Origin: an uncultured Opitutia bacterium
GTDB lineage: Bacteria > Verrucomicrobiota > Verrucomicrobiia > Opitutales > UBA953
Reading direction: 5' to 3'
Length of the DNA: 64,000 nucleotides
Assembly (NCBI GenBank): GCA_945957395.1
Contig: CAMFKE010000001.1
Location: forward strand, 310,001 to 374,000
Position 1 is the stretch's first letter. Each line of letters begins with the position of its first letter. The position numbers were made by a program, and so were the translations under genes. Under the pieces are notes generated by a model, which saw nothing but the letters and a program-made list of their open reading frames with translations, was not told where the DNA came from and did not search any database. Positions 4,247 through 61,444 of this stretch are shown in pieces.

Positions 4247-4302
4247 GCGCCCCGGCGTAAGCCGCCCGTTGCATACGGGGGCTTCCGGCTGCCGTGGCCC
4301 CC

Positions 4303-4337
4303 GTTCCGAGTTCCGCGTTCCGCGTTCTGCGTTCGCG
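4303..4337. repeat. Array of five heptamers, GTTCCGC type
   Basis: Five consecutive 7-base units run through this stretch: GTTCCGA, GTTCCGC twice, GTTCTGC and GTTCGCG. Read on the other strand the consensus is GGAACGC with variable last positions, the same consensus as the longer array at 45090-45150. It lies between the ExoD-like stop and the leuB start, about 50 bases before the leuB ATG. Confidence 0.8.
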
Positions 4338-4386
4338 AAAAATTCCCGTTGCCGCCGTGGGCGGGGCGCTCTTTCTCGCCGCCACC

Positions 4387-43873: not shown

Positions 43874-44980
43874 TTACGGGTTCACGCGGAAGAGCGCGAC
43901 ATCGCCGTCCTTGAACAGGTAGTCCTTGCCTTCGGAGCGGTACTTGCCGGCGTCGCGAGCGGCGGCGACGGAGCCGAGGGAGGCCAGGTCGGTGTAGGCG
44001 ACGACTTCGGCGCGGATGAAGTTTTTCTCGAAGTCGGTGTGGATGACGGCGGCGCACTGGGGGGCGGTCATGCCGACCTTGAAGGTCCAGCAGCGCACTT
44101 CCTTTTCGCCGGCGGTGAAGTAGGTGGCGAGGCCGAGGAGCTTGTAGGATTCCTTGATGAGCTGCGACACGCCGGAGTCGGTCACGCCGAGGGAGCCGAG
44201 GAATTCCTTGGCGTCCTCGGGGGAGAGGTCGCACAGCTCGGCCTCCACCTGGGCGGAGATGACGCACACGCGGCAGCCGTGCTGGTCGGCCACGTACTTC
44301 TTCACCGCCGTCACGTGCGGGTTGGCGTCCGGGTTGGCGATGTCGTTTTCGGCGACATTGCAGGCGTAGAGGACGGCCTTGGTGGTGAGCAGGTTGAAGA
44401 ACTTCATGCGGGCGCGCTCCTCGTCGTCGGCCTGCAGGGAGCTGGCGGGCTTGTCCTCGTTGAGGTGGGCGAGCAGGCGCTCGAGCAGCGCGGCGCTGGC
44501 GACGGCTTCCTTGTCGGCGCCGCCCTTGGCCTTCTTCTTGTTGGTATCGAGCTGCTTCTCGACGGACTGGATGTCGGCGAGGATGAGCTCGGTGTTGATC
44601 ACCTGGATGTCGCGCACCGGGTCGACCTTGCCCATGTTGTGCACGATGTCGTCGTTTTCGAAGCAACGCACCACATGCACGATGGCGTCCACCTCGCGGA
44701 TGTTCGTGAGGAACTTGTTGCCCAGTCCCTCGCCCTTGGACGCGCCGGCCACGAGGCCCGCGATGTCCACGAACTCGATGGCGGCGGGGATGACGACCTG
44801 GGTCTTGGCGATGCCCTTCAGGACATACGCGCGCTCATCGGGCACCTCGACGACGCCCACATTGGGCTCGATGGTGCAGAAGGGGTAGTTGGCGGCCTCG
44901 GCCTTGCGCGAGCGGGTGAGGGCGTTGAACAGGGTGGATTTGCCCACATTGGGCAGACCGACGATACCGGCTTGGAGCAT
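43874..44980 (-). CDS. ychF: Redox-regulated ATPase YchF
   Basis: YchF (OLA1 family) is an Obg-related P-loop protein that hydrolyses ATP in preference to GTP and is linked to translation and the oxidative-stress response. The 368-residue product starts MLQAGIVGLPNVGKSTLFNALT; G2/G3 are NYPFCTIEPNVGVV and FVDIAGLVAGASKGEGLGNKFL. The G4 position is the non-canonical NVAEND (N-x-x-E) that explains ATP preference. A TGS domain closes the protein (GMTAPQCAAVIHTDFEKNFIRAEVVAY). The start is the first ATG; the leader CACCTCCCTTTCCCGCC lies immediately before it. Confidence 0.96.
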   Translation of the reverse strand: MLQAGIVGLPNVGKSTLFNALTRSRKAEAANYPFCTIEPNVGVVEVPDERAYVLKGIAKTQVVIPAAIEFVDIAGLVAGASKGEGLGNKFLTNIREVDAIVHVVRCFENDDIVHNMGKVDPVRDIQVINTELILADIQSVEKQLDTNKKKAKGGADKEAVASAALLERLLAHLNEDKPASSLQADDEERARMKFFNLLTTKAVLYACNVAENDIANPDANPHVTAVKKYVADQHGCRVCVISAQVEAELCDLSPEDAKEFLGSLGVTDSGVSQLIKESYKLLGLATYFTAGEKEVRCWTFKVGMTAPQCAAVIHTDFEKNFIRAEVVAYTDLASLGSVAAARDAGKYRSEGKDYLFKDGDVALFRVNP

Positions 44981-45011
44981 GGCGGGAAAGGGAGGTGCGA
45001 GGTTTTAAGGT

Positions 45012-45150
45012 TTCAGAGTTCAGGGTTCAGGGAACCGTTTTGTGCGCGCAAGGTGCGAGCGCGGGCGTTTTGCGCAATGGGGAACTTTGGGAACTCGGAA
45101 CAGGGAACGCGGAACTCGGAACGGGGAGCTCGGAACGCGGAATGGGGAAC
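45012..45150. repeat. Heptamer arrays: three TTCAGGG-type units and about nine GGAACNN-type units
   Basis: Positions 45012-45032 are TTCAGAG, TTCAGGG, TTCAGGG. Positions 45090-45150 hold eight full 7-base units plus a partial one, with GGAAC at the start of most and variable last bases (TC, AG, GC, TC, GG, then GGAGCTC, GGAACGC, GGAATGG). Between them is ordinary GC-rich sequence. The arrays lie in the intergenic region between ychF and the ghrA-type gene, on the upstream side of both genes. Confidence 0.85.
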
Positions 45151-45222
45151 ATGGACGAAGGGGCGAGGTCGGCGTGTTCGGGCTTTCCCGGCGGTGCGGA
45201 CTGTGAAAGCGTTCGCGCCGTC

Positions 45223-52950: not shown

Positions 52951-52973
52951 GGGCGGGAGGGGGGGGCGAAAGA

Positions 52974-53033
52974 TTGCAGGGTTCAGATTTCAGGATTCAG
53001 GAAGGCCTGAAGTCTGAAACCTGAACCCTGCAA
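52974..53033. repeat. 60-base hairpin of heptamers, TTCAGNN type
   Basis: Two 28-base arms (52974-53001 and 53006-53033) are complementary except for three positions, around the loop AAGG. The left arm contains TTCAGAT, TTCAGGA, TTCAGGA and the right arm TGAAGTC, TGAAACC, TGAACCC, so the stem itself is built of 7-base units. It lies 24 bases beyond the prfB stop on the minus strand and has no T-tract. Confidence 0.9.
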
Positions 53034-53057
53034 ACTCCGCGCGCGCAGGGCGCCGGC

Positions 53058-56406: not shown

Positions 56407-59400
56407 CTACTTCAGACCGAAGAGCTTGTTCACCTCGGCGATGTGAGCGTCGAGGATGGCCGGGGACACCTTGCCTTCGGTGCCCACCTCGGGCGCGAAG
56501 ACGCTGATGCGCAGCTCCTCCAGCAGCCGGCGGAACTCGGCCAGCGCGGCGCGCTGCTCGGGCGTGGCGGCCTTCAGCTTCGCGAACGCCTCGGCCTTCG
56601 CCAGGTACGGCTTCAGCTTCAGCGCCTTTTCGGCGTCCTTGAAGGGCGAGCCCATGTGGCGCTCGCGACGCAGCAGGCGCCCGCGCAGCCAGCGCAGCAG
56701 GCGCGGGAATTCGGCGTAGTCGCGCGTCTCCAAAAAGTCCTTGGGCAGGAAGGTGAGCATGTCGGAGGCCGCGCCCGGATACGCCTTTTCGCCCGAGGTC
56801 AGCAGCAGGTCGCGCTGTTCGAGGAGGGTGCGCAGCGTCTTGATGTATGCGGCGACGAGCCCGGGCACCTTGGCGCGCGCCCGTCGCAGGCGTTCCTCCC
56901 AGGCGGGCTTGGTGAGCGGCAGCAGCGGCGGGGCGTCGGCGAGCAGCAGGTGCCGGCGCAACTGGCCCTTGGCGCCGGCGAGCAACTGGTCGCCCGTGCC
57001 CAGCGTGAGCCACAGCAGGTGCAGCGACTTGAGATCCTTCGACAGCGCGTAGTCGATGCCGGAGAGCTCCGAGCGCAGCGCCGTCTCGGCCAGCGCGATG
57101 AGGCCGGTCGCCGTAGCGTCCTCGGCCTCGCCTCGGCTGCGGAAGAGGCGCAGGTGCGTGCCGTCCTTGTCGCGGGAAAGTCCGGGCCAGGCGAAGATGG
57201 GCGCGCCTGCGGCCGTGCCGGCCGGGAAGGCCTCGGGCAGGTCGGGGAAGGTCCATTCGCGCAGCCCGCTCACCTCGTGTTGCGCGCGCAACTGCGAGAA
57301 CAGGTCGGCCGGTGGCGTTTGCGTGGGGCGCTCGCCGGCGCGTGCCGCTGGCGCAGCGGAATCCGCGGCACGCGTAAGCGCGCGGCCTGCGGGAGCCACC
57401 GCGCTCGTCGGCAGTGACTTCTGTTTCTCCAGCGCCACCTGCCAGGCGTCGCGCAGCGAGCCCAGGTCGCGCGAGGCGCCGGCGGATTTGCCGGCGAAGT
57501 CGGCGAGCTCCAGGCGCGGGATGAGCCGCTCGGGCACATCGGCCGAGGCCAGGTCGCGCGGGAAGATGACGACGCCCCAGCGCCGGCGCACCTCGCCGGC
57601 CAGCCAGTCTTCAATCTTCTTTTGGGAATCCGGCTGCAGGTCCGCGAGCAGCTCCTTCACCTTGTCGGCGATGGGGTGCAGCGCGATGCGCGCCTCCTTG
57701 GGCGCTCGCCGCAGCATGAGCTCCACGCGCTCGGGCAGGTAGCCCGGCACGAGCCAGTCGAGGAAACCCGGCGGCAGCGACGAGTACAGCTCGGCCGGCA
57801 GGCGCAGCGTGACGCCGTCGTCCTCGCCGCCGGGAGCCTGGCGGTAGGTGAGCGCGAACTCCTGCGAGCCGATCTGCACGGAGGACGGGAAGGCCGCGGC
57901 CTCGCCGAGGTTCTCGACGCCCAGGTCGCGCTCGGTGAGGTGCAGCAGGCGCGACTCCGCCGTGCGGTGGTCGCGGCAGAACCGGCGCAGGTCGCCCGTG
58001 CTGCCCACCGCGGTGAGCCGTTCGGCGTAAAAGGTGGTGAGGCGCTCGTCGATGGCGGCGGCCGAGAACTTGCGCAGGCGCATGAGCCGGTCCTCCACAT
58101 TCGCGAGCACATCGCGGTTGTGGTCGAGGAACTCGAAGTGCTCGTTCACCTCGTCCGGCACGAGGGCGTTGCGGATGAACATGTCCGTGGCCGCCACGGG
58201 GTCGAACTGCGCGTAGCCGACGGCGCGCGTGGCGACCTCCAACCCGTAAAGGCGTGTGCGCTCCTTGATTACCGCGCGGCAGCCGGCTTCGTCCCAGAAG
58301 GGCTCGGTGTGCGAGGTGACGAGCAGGTGCTTGCCCAGGTCGAGAATCCACGAGGGGTTCACGCGCGCCACGGTGCGCGCGAACAGCCGGCTGGTCTCCA
58401 TCCACCCGGCGCACACCGTCCACTCCGGCAGCTTCGGCGCCTTGTCCGGCGCGGGGTCGCCCGGCTTGCGCCGCAACCGCGCGATCTCGGCGCCGCGGCG
58501 GCCCTTGGCGAGCGAGCTGCCCGGGAAGAGCGCGGCCTTGCGGCTGTGCGTGGCGTTGTACACGCCGTCCTTGTCCAGGTGCGCGACATTGCCGAGCAGA
58601 CCGGCGAGGATGGAGCGGTGGATGGGGTCGTAGCCGGCGCGCGAGACGCGGTTTTCAAGGTGCGAGGTGCGAGGTGTGAGGTGCGAGGATGAGTCGCCGG
58701 AATCCCTTCCTCGAACCTCCGACCTCGCGCCTCGCTCCTCGAGTTCGTCCATCGCGCGTTCGAGCTGCGAGTGCAGGTCGCGCCACTCCTGCATGCGCAG
58801 GAAGTTGAGGAAGTGCGATTTGCAGAACTTGCGCAGCTTGCCCAGCGAGAGGTTCTCGCACTCGTCGTGGTAGGCGTCCCAGATGTTGAGCAGCGTGAGG
58901 AAGTCGGATTCCGGATGCAGGAACGGCTTGTGCATCATGTCGGCCTGACCCGGGTTTTCCTGCGGGCGCTCGCGCGGGTCCATGATGCTCAGTCCAGCGG
59001 CGATCACCAGGGCCTCGCGCAGGCATTGCTCGCGCCGCGCCTGAAGCAGGATGCGCGCGAGCGTGGGGTCCACGGGCAGCCGGGCCATCTCGCGGCCCAG
59101 CGGCGTGAGCCGGTGCTCCTCGTCGATGGCGCCGAGCTCGTGCAGCTGCACGAAGCCGGCTTTGATGGTGCGCTCCTGCGGCGGGTTGAGGAACGGGAAC
59201 TCGCGGATGTCGCCCAGCCGGAACGCCAGCATGCGCAGGATGACCCCCGCGAGGTTGCTGCGCAGGATCTCCGGCTCGGTCTGCACCGGGCGCTTGTTGA
59301 AGTCGTCCTCCGAATACAGGCGGAAGCACACGCCTTCGGCCACGCGGCCGCAGCGGCCCTTGCGCTGGTTGGCGGCGGATTGGGAAACGGGCTCGACCGG

Positions 59401-60387
59401 CAGGCGCTGCGTGCGCGTCTGCGGGCTGTGGCGCGACACGCGCGCCAGTCCGGAGTCGATGACGAACCGGATGCCGGGGATGGTCAGCGAGGTCTCCGCG
59501 ACATTCGTGGAGACGACGATCTTGCGGTGGCGCGACGGCGCGAAGATGCGCTGCTGGTCGGCGGCGGACAACCGCCCGAACAGCGGCAGCACCTCGGCGG
59601 GCTTGGGCCCGTGCTTCTCGAGCAGCGCGCAGGTCTCACGGATGTCGCGCTCCGTGGGCATGAAGATGAGGATGTCGCCGCGGTCGCCGGTCGCCGCGAT
59701 GTCGCGCGCCGTCTGCGCGGCCGCCTCGGTGAAGCTGACATCGCCGGCCTCCTCGCGGATCTCGTCGAGCGGGCGCCACACGACCTCCACCGGGTAGGTG
59801 CGGCCGGATACCCGGATGACCGGCGCGCCCGGGAAGGCCTCCGAGAAGGCTTCCAGGTCGAGCGTGGCGGAGGTGATGATGAGGCGCAGGTCGGGCCGCT
59901 TCTCGCGAATCCGGCGGAAGTGCCCGATCAGGAAATCCATGTTCAGCGAGCGCTCGTGCGCCTCGTCGAGCATGACGGCCGAGTAGCGCCGCAGGAGCGG
60001 GTCGTGCTGGATCTCGTTCAGCAGGATGCCGTCCGTCATCACCTTGATGCGCGTCTCGTCGCGCGAGCGGTCGCTGAAACGGATCTGGCAGCCGACATAG
60101 CCGCCCCATTCCGTCTTCATCTCCTCGGCGATGCGGCGCGACACGGCCAGCGCGGCCACGCGGCGCGGCTGGGTGACCGCCACGCGCCCGGTGTCGGCGA
60201 ATCCGGCCTCCACCAGCATCTTGGGCAGCTGCGTGGTTTTGCCCGAGCCGGTCTCGCCGGCCAGGATGAGGGTGTTGTGCTCGCGCAGGGCGCGCACGAT
60301 GTCCTCGCGACGCGCGGACACGGGCAGCTCCTCCGGATACTCCAGGGAGGGCCGGGGAACGGGCGCGGATGGCGGGGGCGTGGACAT
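56407..60387 (-). CDS. hrpA: ATP-dependent RNA helicase HrpA (DEAH box) with repeat insertion
   Basis: HrpA is a large DEAH-box RNA helicase. The 1326-residue product has Walker A ILAGETGSGKTTQLPKM, DEAH in VMLDEAHERSLNMDFL, SAT in LIITSATLDLEAF, FMPTERDIRETCALLEKHG and the QRKGRCGR motif VI (AANQRKGRCGRVAEGVCF), then a winged-helix and HA2 part, an OB-fold and the long C-terminal DUF3418 region (ALVPDEVNEHFEFLDHNRDVLANVEDRLMRLRKFS...). Near residue 560, between DELEE and NRVSRAGYDP, about 27 residues (RGARSEVRGRD...SHLTPRTSHLE) are encoded by two opposed heptamer arrays at 58658-58739, keeping the frame open. The start at 60387 (MSTPPPSAPVPRP) fits the E. coli length; longer starts do not match the family. 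Confidence 0.94.
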   Translation of the reverse strand: MSTPPPSAPVPRPSLEYPEELPVSARREDIVRALREHNTLILAGETGSGKTTQLPKMLVEAGFADTGRVAVTQPRRVAALAVSRRIAEEMKTEWGGYVGCQIRFSDRSRDETRIKVMTDGILLNEIQHDPLLRRYSAVMLDEAHERSLNMDFLIGHFRRIREKRPDLRLIITSATLDLEAFSEAFPGAPVIRVSGRTYPVEVVWRPLDEIREEAGDVSFTEAAAQTARDIAATGDRGDILIFMPTERDIRETCALLEKHGPKPAEVLPLFGRLSAADQQRIFAPSRHRKIVVSTNVAETSLTIPGIRFVIDSGLARVSRHSPQTRTQRLPVEPVSQSAANQRKGRCGRVAEGVCFRLYSEDDFNKRPVQTEPEILRSNLAGVILRMLAFRLGDIREFPFLNPPQERTIKAGFVQLHELGAIDEEHRLTPLGREMARLPVDPTLARILLQARREQCLREALVIAAGLSIMDPRERPQENPGQADMMHKPFLHPESDFLTLLNIWDAYHDECENLSLGKLRKFCKSHFLNFLRMQEWRDLHSQLERAMDELEERGARSEVRGRDSGDSSSHLTPRTSHLENRVSRAGYDPIHRSILAGLLGNVAHLDKDGVYNATHSRKAALFPGSSLAKGRRGAEIARLRRKPGDPAPDKAPKLPEWTVCAGWMETSRLFARTVARVNPSWILDLGKHLLVTSHTEPFWDEAGCRAVIKERTRLYGLEVATRAVGYAQFDPVAATDMFIRNALVPDEVNEHFEFLDHNRDVLANVEDRLMRLRKFSAAAIDERLTTFYAERLTAVGSTGDLRRFCRDHRTAESRLLHLTERDLGVENLGEAAAFPSSVQIGSQEFALTYRQAPGGEDDGVTLRLPAELYSSLPPGFLDWLVPGYLPERVELMLRRAPKEARIALHPIADKVKELLADLQPDSQKKIEDWLAGEVRRRWGVVIFPRDLASADVPERLIPRLELADFAGKSAGASRDLGSLRDAWQVALEKQKSLPTSAVAPAGRALTRAADSAAPAARAGERPTQTPPADLFSQLRAQHEVSGLREWTFPDLPEAFPAGTAAGAPIFAWPGLSRDKDGTHLRLFRSRGEAEDATATGLIALAETALRSELSGIDYALSKDLKSLHLLWLTLGTGDQLLAGAKGQLRRHLLLADAPPLLPLTKPAWEERLRRARAKVPGLVAAYIKTLRTLLEQRDLLLTSGEKAYPGAASDMLTFLPKDFLETRDYAEFPRLLRWLRGRLLRRERHMGSPFKDAEKALKLKPYLAKAEAFAKLKAATPEQRAALAEFRRLLEELRISVFAPEVGTEGKVSPAILDAHIAEVNKLFGLK
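58658..58739. repeat. In-gene heptamer inverted repeat inside hrpA
   Basis: On the plus strand, positions 58658-58692 are five 7-base units of the form AGGNNNG (AGGTGCG, AGGTGCG, AGGTGTG, AGGTGCG, AGGATGA). After 12 bases, 58705-58739 are five units of the form CNNNCCT (CCTTCCT, CGAACCT, CCGACCT, CGCGCCT, CGCTCCT), the reverse complement of the first class. The hrpA reading frame runs through the whole element. Confidence 0.88.
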
Positions 60388-60409
60388 AGGCGAACGCGGG
60401 AAATGGCGA

Positions 60410-60434
60410 CGCCTCCGCCAAAAGCGAGCCCGAG
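60410..60434. repeat. 25-base direct repeat, copy 1
   Basis: A 25-base string beginning CGCCTCCGCCAAAA and ending GAGCCCGAG is identical to 61447-61471. It is found just before the hrpA start on the minus strand and on the upstream side of the first lipoprotein gene. Confidence 0.95.
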
Positions 60435-60492
60435 CATGCGGGTGGGCGAACAGTCGGCTTGCTGGACGGACGCCGGGCGACACAAGGGCCGC

Positions 60493-61023
60493 ATGATCAG
60501 AGTATCGCCCCTCATGCTCTCCGTGCTGCTGACACCGGTACTCGGAGGCTGTTTCAATTTCGCGAACGAGACCGCTCCGCCCCATGCCGCCGCCGCGGTC
60601 GCCTGGTACTCCGGTGAAGATGTGAACCCGGATCCCATGGCCAACGCGCGCTTCAACTTTTTCGACCTTGAGGACATGGCGAAGTCGCTTGTGGCGGGCG
60701 CAAACGAGAAGGGGGTCAAGCCCGTCTCCTTCACGCGAAGCGACGCCGACAGCCACCTCGTGTACCACCTCGGCAAGCAGGTGGAATTGCTCCCGGGAGA
60801 AGGCGCCGCGCTGGAACGCTCGGGAAAGCGTCCATGGAAGAAAGCGTTCCCGGGAGGGCTCGCCTACGCGCCGAAAGGCGACGGGCCCATACGGCTTGTT
60901 TTCAAGGACGCTCATGGGTTTCTCGCCCGCATGCCCGGGGCCGATGGAGGAACCTTGCTGGTCGTGACCATCCACGAAAGCGGCGACGACACGCTGCGCC
61001 GCGAAGCCGAATCCATCCGCTGA
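60493..61023 (+). CDS. Putative lipoprotein, 176 residues
   Basis: The protein starts at ATG 60493 with a short lipoprotein signal (MIRVSPLMLSVLLTPVLGGC, lipobox LGGC), confirmed by AAGGG five bases before the start. The mature part (NFANETAPPHAAAAVAWYSGEDVNPDPMANARFNFFDLEDMAKSLVAGANEKG...) has no recognised domain. It contains KQVELLPGEGAALERSGKRPWKKAFPGGLAYAPKGDGPIRLVFKDAHG, suggestive of a small beta-rich domain. The second lipoprotein gene follows after ten bases. The pair is bracketed by the 25-base direct repeats and lies opposite to the strand of hrpA and the greA-like gene. Confidence 0.8.
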   Translation: MIRVSPLMLSVLLTPVLGGCFNFANETAPPHAAAAVAWYSGEDVNPDPMANARFNFFDLEDMAKSLVAGANEKGVKPVSFTRSDADSHLVYHLGKQVELLPGEGAALERSGKRPWKKAFPGGLAYAPKGDGPIRLVFKDAHGFLARMPGADGGTLLVVTIHESGDDTLRREAESIR

Positions 61024-61033
61024 ATCCCCACCC

Positions 61034-61444
61034 ATGAGTCCCCTCCGCACGCCGGTGTCGCTGGCCGCGCTTCTCGCGCTCGCCGGATGTTCCTCCCCGT
61101 CACCCGAGACCATCGATTTCGGCGATGAAATGGTCTCGCGCGCCAAGCCGGCCAAGCGCCCTGCGTCGGCTGAAATGGCCGCGTTGTCGCTCACCCATAG
61201 GACCGAAAGCATCCGGGGCTTCACGCTCCTGAACATCGGCTACGAGCGATACAGGACCGGAGTCTTCGCCGCGCCGAACGGGAAGCCTTTCACCGACGAA
61301 AAGGGAAGGCGCGTGGTGACCCTCGACTTCACCACCGCCGGCTATCACCGGTACGCATTCCTCTTTGGCAGCACCACATCCCATGCGGGGCTGCAGACGC
61401 GCCCGGTTCGGGTCGTGCTCGACTCTTCGAGTCCCGCGCGTTGA
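61034..61444 (+). CDS. Putative lipoprotein, 136 residues
   Basis: The protein has a lipoprotein signal (MSPLRTPVSLAALLALAGC, lipobox LAGC) and a 117-residue mature part with no recognised domain: PETIDFGDEMVSRAKPAKRPASAEMAALSL, then GFTLLNIGYERYRTGVFAAPNGKPFTDEKGRRVVTLDFTTAGYHRYAFLFGSTTSHAGLQTRPVRVVLD. It may be a small beta-sandwich. It starts ten bases after the previous lipoprotein and is probably in the same transcript. It ends three bases before the second 25-base repeat. Confidence 0.8.
   Translation: MSPLRTPVSLAALLALAGCSSPSPETIDFGDEMVSRAKPAKRPASAEMAALSLTHRTESIRGFTLLNIGYERYRTGVFAAPNGKPFTDEKGRRVVTLDFTTAGYHRYAFLFGSTTSHAGLQTRPVRVVLDSSSPAR

Follow-up and report, generated by a model that had tools for sequence, protein, structure and literature searches.

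What is an array of inverted heptamers doing inside a housekeeping helicase gene, and how could it arise there in frame? The locus lies in the window, a 64,000-nucleotide stretch of one contig from the genome of an uncultured Opitutia bacterium (G000; 2.79 Mb, 14 contigs). The original prediction described five AGGNNNG units, a 12-base spacer and five CNNNCCT units on the opposite arm. This inverted repeat is present, with four perfect AGGNNNG units and an imperfect fifth that has A instead of G at position 7, and an extra CCTC unit extends the right arm beyond the five predicted units (Table 1). A period of 7 was detected independently in each arm by TRF, and the best period-7 score in the surrounding linker is 24/28 compared with at most 15 for the other tested periods. 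The array is in frame within a single ORF and none of the three coding-strand frames contains a stop codon across it.

Table 1. Positions of the hrpA array and of other heptamer arrays in the window, and heptamers found at the same HrpA linker.
Feature	Position	Strand	Description
hrpA CDS	56407..60387	-	start ATG at 60387 by homology; ORF open to upstream ATG at 61236
hrpA heptamer array, whole	58658-58743		inside minus-strand hrpA; GAGG-NNN heptamers, then CCTC-NNN heptamers
Left arm	58658..58692	+	core GAGG + NNN; units AGGTGCG 58658, AGGTGCG 58665, AGGTGTG 58672, AGGTGCG 58679, AGGATGA 58686
Spacer, 12-base	58693..58704	.	loop of predicted hairpin
Right arm	58705..58743	-	CCTC heptamers; units CCTTCCT 58705, CGAACCT 58712, CCGACCT 58719, CGCGCCT 58726, CGCTCCT 58733-58739; minus strand GAGG + AGC, CGC, TCG, TTC, AAG
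Heptamer array, GTTCCGN	4285..4341	+	
Heptamer array, AGGTTTC/AGGGTTC	44989..45035	+	upstream of minus-strand ORF 43874-44980
Heptamer array, GGAACNN units	45085..45151	+	
Second inverted heptamer pair, TTCAGGN / CCTGAAN	52971..53035	.	between ORFs
Linker array, window			GAGG/CCTC
Linker array, G083 (L134)			CCCCACG
Linker array, G142 (L115)			CACCACY
Linker arrays, G206 (L137)			GAACGTC with GTTCGAC arms; third array CACTCCY
Linker arrays, Planctomycetota L064 and L079			different heptamers

The gene encodes HrpA, as indicated by a match to NCBIfam TIGR01967 at 1091.9 bits (cut-off 722.75), by the Pfam domains DEAD, Helicase_C, HA2_N, HA2_C, OB_NTP_bind and DUF3418 and by matches to E. coli HrpA structures. 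Upstream of the likely start the ORF stays open for 283 codons on the minus strand (60388-61236), an extension that is commonplace at 70% GC and probably untranslated. The insert corresponds to about 25 residues (approximately 552-576, numbered from the M at 60387) and sits in the linker between HA2_C, which Pfam ends at residue 499, and the OB fold, which begins at 589. An AF2 model built with 31 sequences (mean pLDDT 85.6) places helices at residues 529-560 and 586-596, with pLDDT below 50 at 563-574, within the insert. The linker is 46 residues long compared with 21 and 20 in G191 and G153, respectively, which rank among the three best matches apart from the self-match, and most named HrpA homologues have a linker of 20-24 residues. 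The proposal that extra residues were added in frame between conserved blocks of HrpA is thus borne out by their absence from the closest homologues; conservation of the peptide across all HrpA proteins, which would have spoken against an insertion, was looked for and is not seen. Linker length varies widely, with about 35-52 non-heptameric residues in the f14 genomes of the same order and long non-periodic linkers in L010, L128 and L138; since L010 and L087 both have long linkers without period 7, long HrpA linkers are not heptameric in general. Those genomes of the same family (G001-G024) that were searched gave no close hrpA match and only weak helicase matches (about 1e-12 to 1e-17); hrpA therefore seems to be missing from the family's other members, whether by loss or otherwise.

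The hrpA array has many relatives in its own genome. In pattern searches, which together with selected stretches form the basis of all own-genome statistics, AGGN3GAGGN3GAGG has 83 matches compared with 8 for the reversed control. The same pattern has 0-4 matches in five other genomes of the family that were searched, and 96-130 GAGG-heptamer matches were found in G031, G036 and G165, which belong to other families of the same order; the 1.3 Mb genome of G036 has 96 compared with 0 for the control. By these sequence counts, the GAGG array population is real, genome-specific and patchy. In the named HrpA flanks and the window, 26 period-7 arrays were found versus 1, 6, 1, 0 and 0 for periods 5, 8, 10, 11 and 13, respectively. 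Many arrays are single-armed, and arrays with the same rhythm also occur outside genes. Many GAGG/CCTC arrays stop 0-30 bases short of an ATG (own-genome stretches L148, L149, L152, L156 and L158-L161), and their sense strand is the C-rich one (CACCTC), which is similar to the 16S anti-Shine-Dalgarno sequence. Some contigs terminate within or close to such arrays (C6 at its end, L149 2194-2322, and C11:164); assembly breaks at arrays are therefore probable, which would make the genome-wide count a lower bound. Arrays can also be dense elsewhere, as in the 22.8 kb of L087 (Pirellulales SJ322), where nine period-7 arrays are built on several unrelated cores (GGGATAG, TTGGGTC, GCAATTT and ATGAAGT).

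The units combine a fixed core with free triplets. Across 143 units from 23 own-genome arrays, chosen for GAGG in the consensus and with units kept at four or more matches out of seven, mismatches to the array consensus at G, A, G, G, N, N and N number 15, 9, 6, 13, 29, 41 and 52, respectively. Arrays were pooled with unit trimming because conservation tests on single arrays included flanks and were underpowered (only 4 of the 85 arrays reached p < 0.05). Of 36 adjacent triplet pairs in short strict GAGG-NNN arrays, 3 are identical, compared with 9.3% between arrays, a small sample; adjacency within an array thus brings no greater likeness than chance pairing across arrays, the opposite of what simple one-unit slippage would predict, and such slippage fails to explain the units. 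When all arrays are taken, identity lies below the within-array shuffle at lag 1 and above it at lag 2 due to long alternating TGG/TCC arrays close to where contig C6 ends. Of 18 pairs of neighbouring arrays no more than 150 bp apart, 10 have reverse-complementary consensus sequences (at least 5 of 7 positions), while 200 shuffles gave 2.5 such pairs on average and never more than 8. Distant loci yielded no two arrays with a long series of triplets in the same order, which counts against template switching, the mechanism proposed below.

Period-7 arrays are found in the same linker of six HrpA genes, those of the window, G083, G142, G206, L064 and L079, and periods 4, 5, 8, 10, 11 and 13 yielded none at threshold in this linker. 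The linker pattern search missed 68 loci and was complemented by tblastn, which covered 193 loci. L064 and L079 encode sister HrpA proteins that are 83% identical, yet their heptamers differ. The G206 linker, with its GAACGTC/GTTCGAC arms, measures 73 residues compared with 28 in G410 of the same family, the left flank being identical. A second loop, upstream of the linker, contains CAGAAGC/CAGAGGC-type arrays in two genomes (G037, L010; G115, L146), the L146 array being irregular in register and called as period 8. In a third loop, between ERDIRE and PLFGRL, AAAATCN arrays are present in G188 (L103), G110 (L104) and G379 (L121). This loop has 19 residues in G188 and G110 and 13 in their congeners G391 and G307, which are without heptamers there, so that filled and empty sites can be compared within one genus as a net in-frame gain of 18 nucleotides in alignable DNA. 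Parsimony requires at least four changes for the linker arrays and at least nine for all three loops on a quick HrpA tree of 114 rows with some long branches and SH-aLRT support only. HrpA was chosen as the surveyed gene by the finding itself and the recurrence counts concern HrpA alone. Within that scope, the new part of these observations is the repeated gain of different period-7 arrays in HrpA loops.

Rickettsia palindromic elements (RPE), to which the original prediction compared the locus, are palindromic DNA segments that lie in frame at tolerated sites of conserved proteins and are translated with them. Transposition of a whole mobile palindromic element (RPE, REP or MITE-like) into hrpA, followed by in-frame read-through, would agree with the inverted arms, the in-frame site in a conserved protein where relatives lack it, the open coding-strand frames and the many related arrays in the genome. 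Dispersed full-element homology is, however, lacking. A search of the genome with the element and its flanks finds the full length only at the locus itself; the other 45 matches span 14-47 bases, the best of them 31-47 bases of one arm, and arm-sized matches fall in heptamer arrays where inspected. The absence of a second whole copy largely refutes this explanation. Cores also vary between loci and between genomes, many arrays have a single arm and no target-site duplication is seen by eye at the presumed insertion ends (58650-58750), which no unoccupied site in a near relative defines. We thus consider a transposed element very unlikely. Ordinary replication slippage, with a seed heptamer duplicated unit by unit, decaying by point mutation and selected for multiples of three in coding sequence, is easier to entertain, as a 7-nucleotide polymerase contact favouring heptamer slippage has been proposed (Mrazek 2007, as cited in PMC4679880 and PMC4692102). 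Some arrays in other genomes are near-perfect and resemble ordinary slippage, for example ACA ACA ACA in G083. Slippage nevertheless fits poorly with the dissimilar adjacent triplets of this genome, the lag pattern of the long alternating arrays, the concentration of mismatches in three positions, the excess of inverted pairing and a core common to many loci of the genome and not to its family, and remains a possible but unlikely account.

Two further explanations assign a function to the array. A DNA- or RNA-binding factor could read GAGG every 7 nucleotides or the stem, the arrays being regulatory and the hrpA copy modulating translation or binding the factor. Selection of the core as a binding site would produce fixed cores with random triplets just as well, many arrays lie directly upstream of ATG codons and translational regulation was proposed by MacGregor for TAACTGA repeats upstream of starts (PMC4679880). 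The single strand of the hrpA array is predicted to fold at -65.7 kcal/mol (z = -7.3), with 0 of 200 dinucleotide shuffles as stable; the whole linker gives z = -6.2, and against synonymous recoding the array gives z = -2.6. The predicted pairing of the arms in the mRNA therefore stands, but other windows of the GC-rich hrpA gene nearly equal the array's absolute folding energy and the pairing is not general to HrpA arrays. While L137 and L079 have z values of -2.9 and -3.0, no unusual stem is predicted for the same-site arrays of G083 (L134, +1.7), G142 (L115, -1.3) and L064 (+1.4). These arrays do not bear out the suggested effect on ribosomes, and because several HrpA arrays are stemless, a role for the mRNA stem was discarded as an account of such arrays in general. 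The mid-gene position of the hrpA array and the wholly different cores at the same site in relatives also argue against a binding site, which we regard as improbable. That the added peptide is useful in itself, for example as a charged linker lengthening HrpA, with the DNA rhythm being incidental, would be in line with the variable length of the linker, including its long non-periodic forms. The peptides of the different lineages are unrelated, however, and arrays of the same rhythm lie outside genes, leaving this idea with hardly any likelihood.

The reading we favour, and hold to be fairly likely, is that a degenerate heptamer array arose or expanded inside hrpA and was tolerated in a disordered inter-domain loop; growth by template switching is the inferred mechanism. 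The array, four fixed bases (GAGG) and three free ones in two opposed arms, belongs to a genome-wide population, which on this reading turns over rapidly. During replication, the 4-base core may act as microhomology for re-annealing of the nascent strand within the array, onto an array elsewhere in the genome or in reversed orientation, the last giving rise to inverted arms. Such template switching would fix the core, reshuffle the triplets and spread one core throughout the genome. The disordered loop, the frame-preserving length and the lack of stop codons in all three coding-strand frames would explain why the array was kept in hrpA, and neither the mRNA stem nor the peptide encoded by the array is probably functional, both being by-products that the cell tolerates. 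A more far-reaching proposal is that bacteria of several phyla possess a sequence-specific process, carried out by a dedicated protein or through templated synthesis, which lays down genome-specific 4-base cores every 7 nucleotides with free bases between them in either orientation. Arrays would then be inserted or grown in frame in gene loops such as those of hrpA, the core being set genome-wide and changing between families. We put this forward as a speculative and rather improbable extension.

In most genomes, heptanucleotides outnumber all other long repeats according to Mrazek and colleagues (as cited in PMC4679880 and PMC4692102), and this reported over-representation among long bacterial repeats lacks an explanation of its origin. 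The literature searched contained no report on heptamers in Verrucomicrobiota or Planctomycetota. HrpA offers a natural experiment, one conserved gene with few loops, several independent gains and different cores, and the growth rate, the selection on frame and the role of the core would therefore be measurable. In this genome, the lack of similarity between adjacent units, although from a small sample, conflicts with the usual slippage account.

Among known systems, the closest likeness is to the STRR/LSSR heptamers of Calothrix, Nostoc, Xanthomonas (GGGAATC) and Beggiatoaceae (TAACTGA), which share the period of 7, a genome-specific motif, degenerate positions (GGGANTN in Xanthomonas), a mostly intergenic dispersal, often upstream of starts, and occasional inverted pairs (PMC4692102, PMC4679880); Rehm et al. 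included inverted pairs among the GGGANTN heptamers (PMC4692102). The hrpA array agrees with this class in its 7-nucleotide tandem units, seen by TRF and autocorrelation, and in its many related arrays in the genome. In contrast to STRR/LSSR, its units share only four of seven bases and are not the (near-)identical products of unit duplication, which makes it a variant and not a plain member; an inverted pair inside a housekeeping gene and the recurrence of arrays at one protein loop in other lineages are further differences. In the P6b region of Nostoc trnL, degenerate heptamers (TDNGATT/NNTGAGT) on complementary arms likewise form a stem, and the motif class at this one site differs by lineage as it does in HrpA (Kaasalainen et al., PMC4476775). 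The Nostoc site is a stem of a self-splicing group I intron while the site described here is protein-coding. Unlike RPEs, the hrpA array has no dispersed homologous full-length copies and is built of heptamers. As judged from its sequence, it fits the loose bacterial heptanucleotide-repeat class and not the RPEs.
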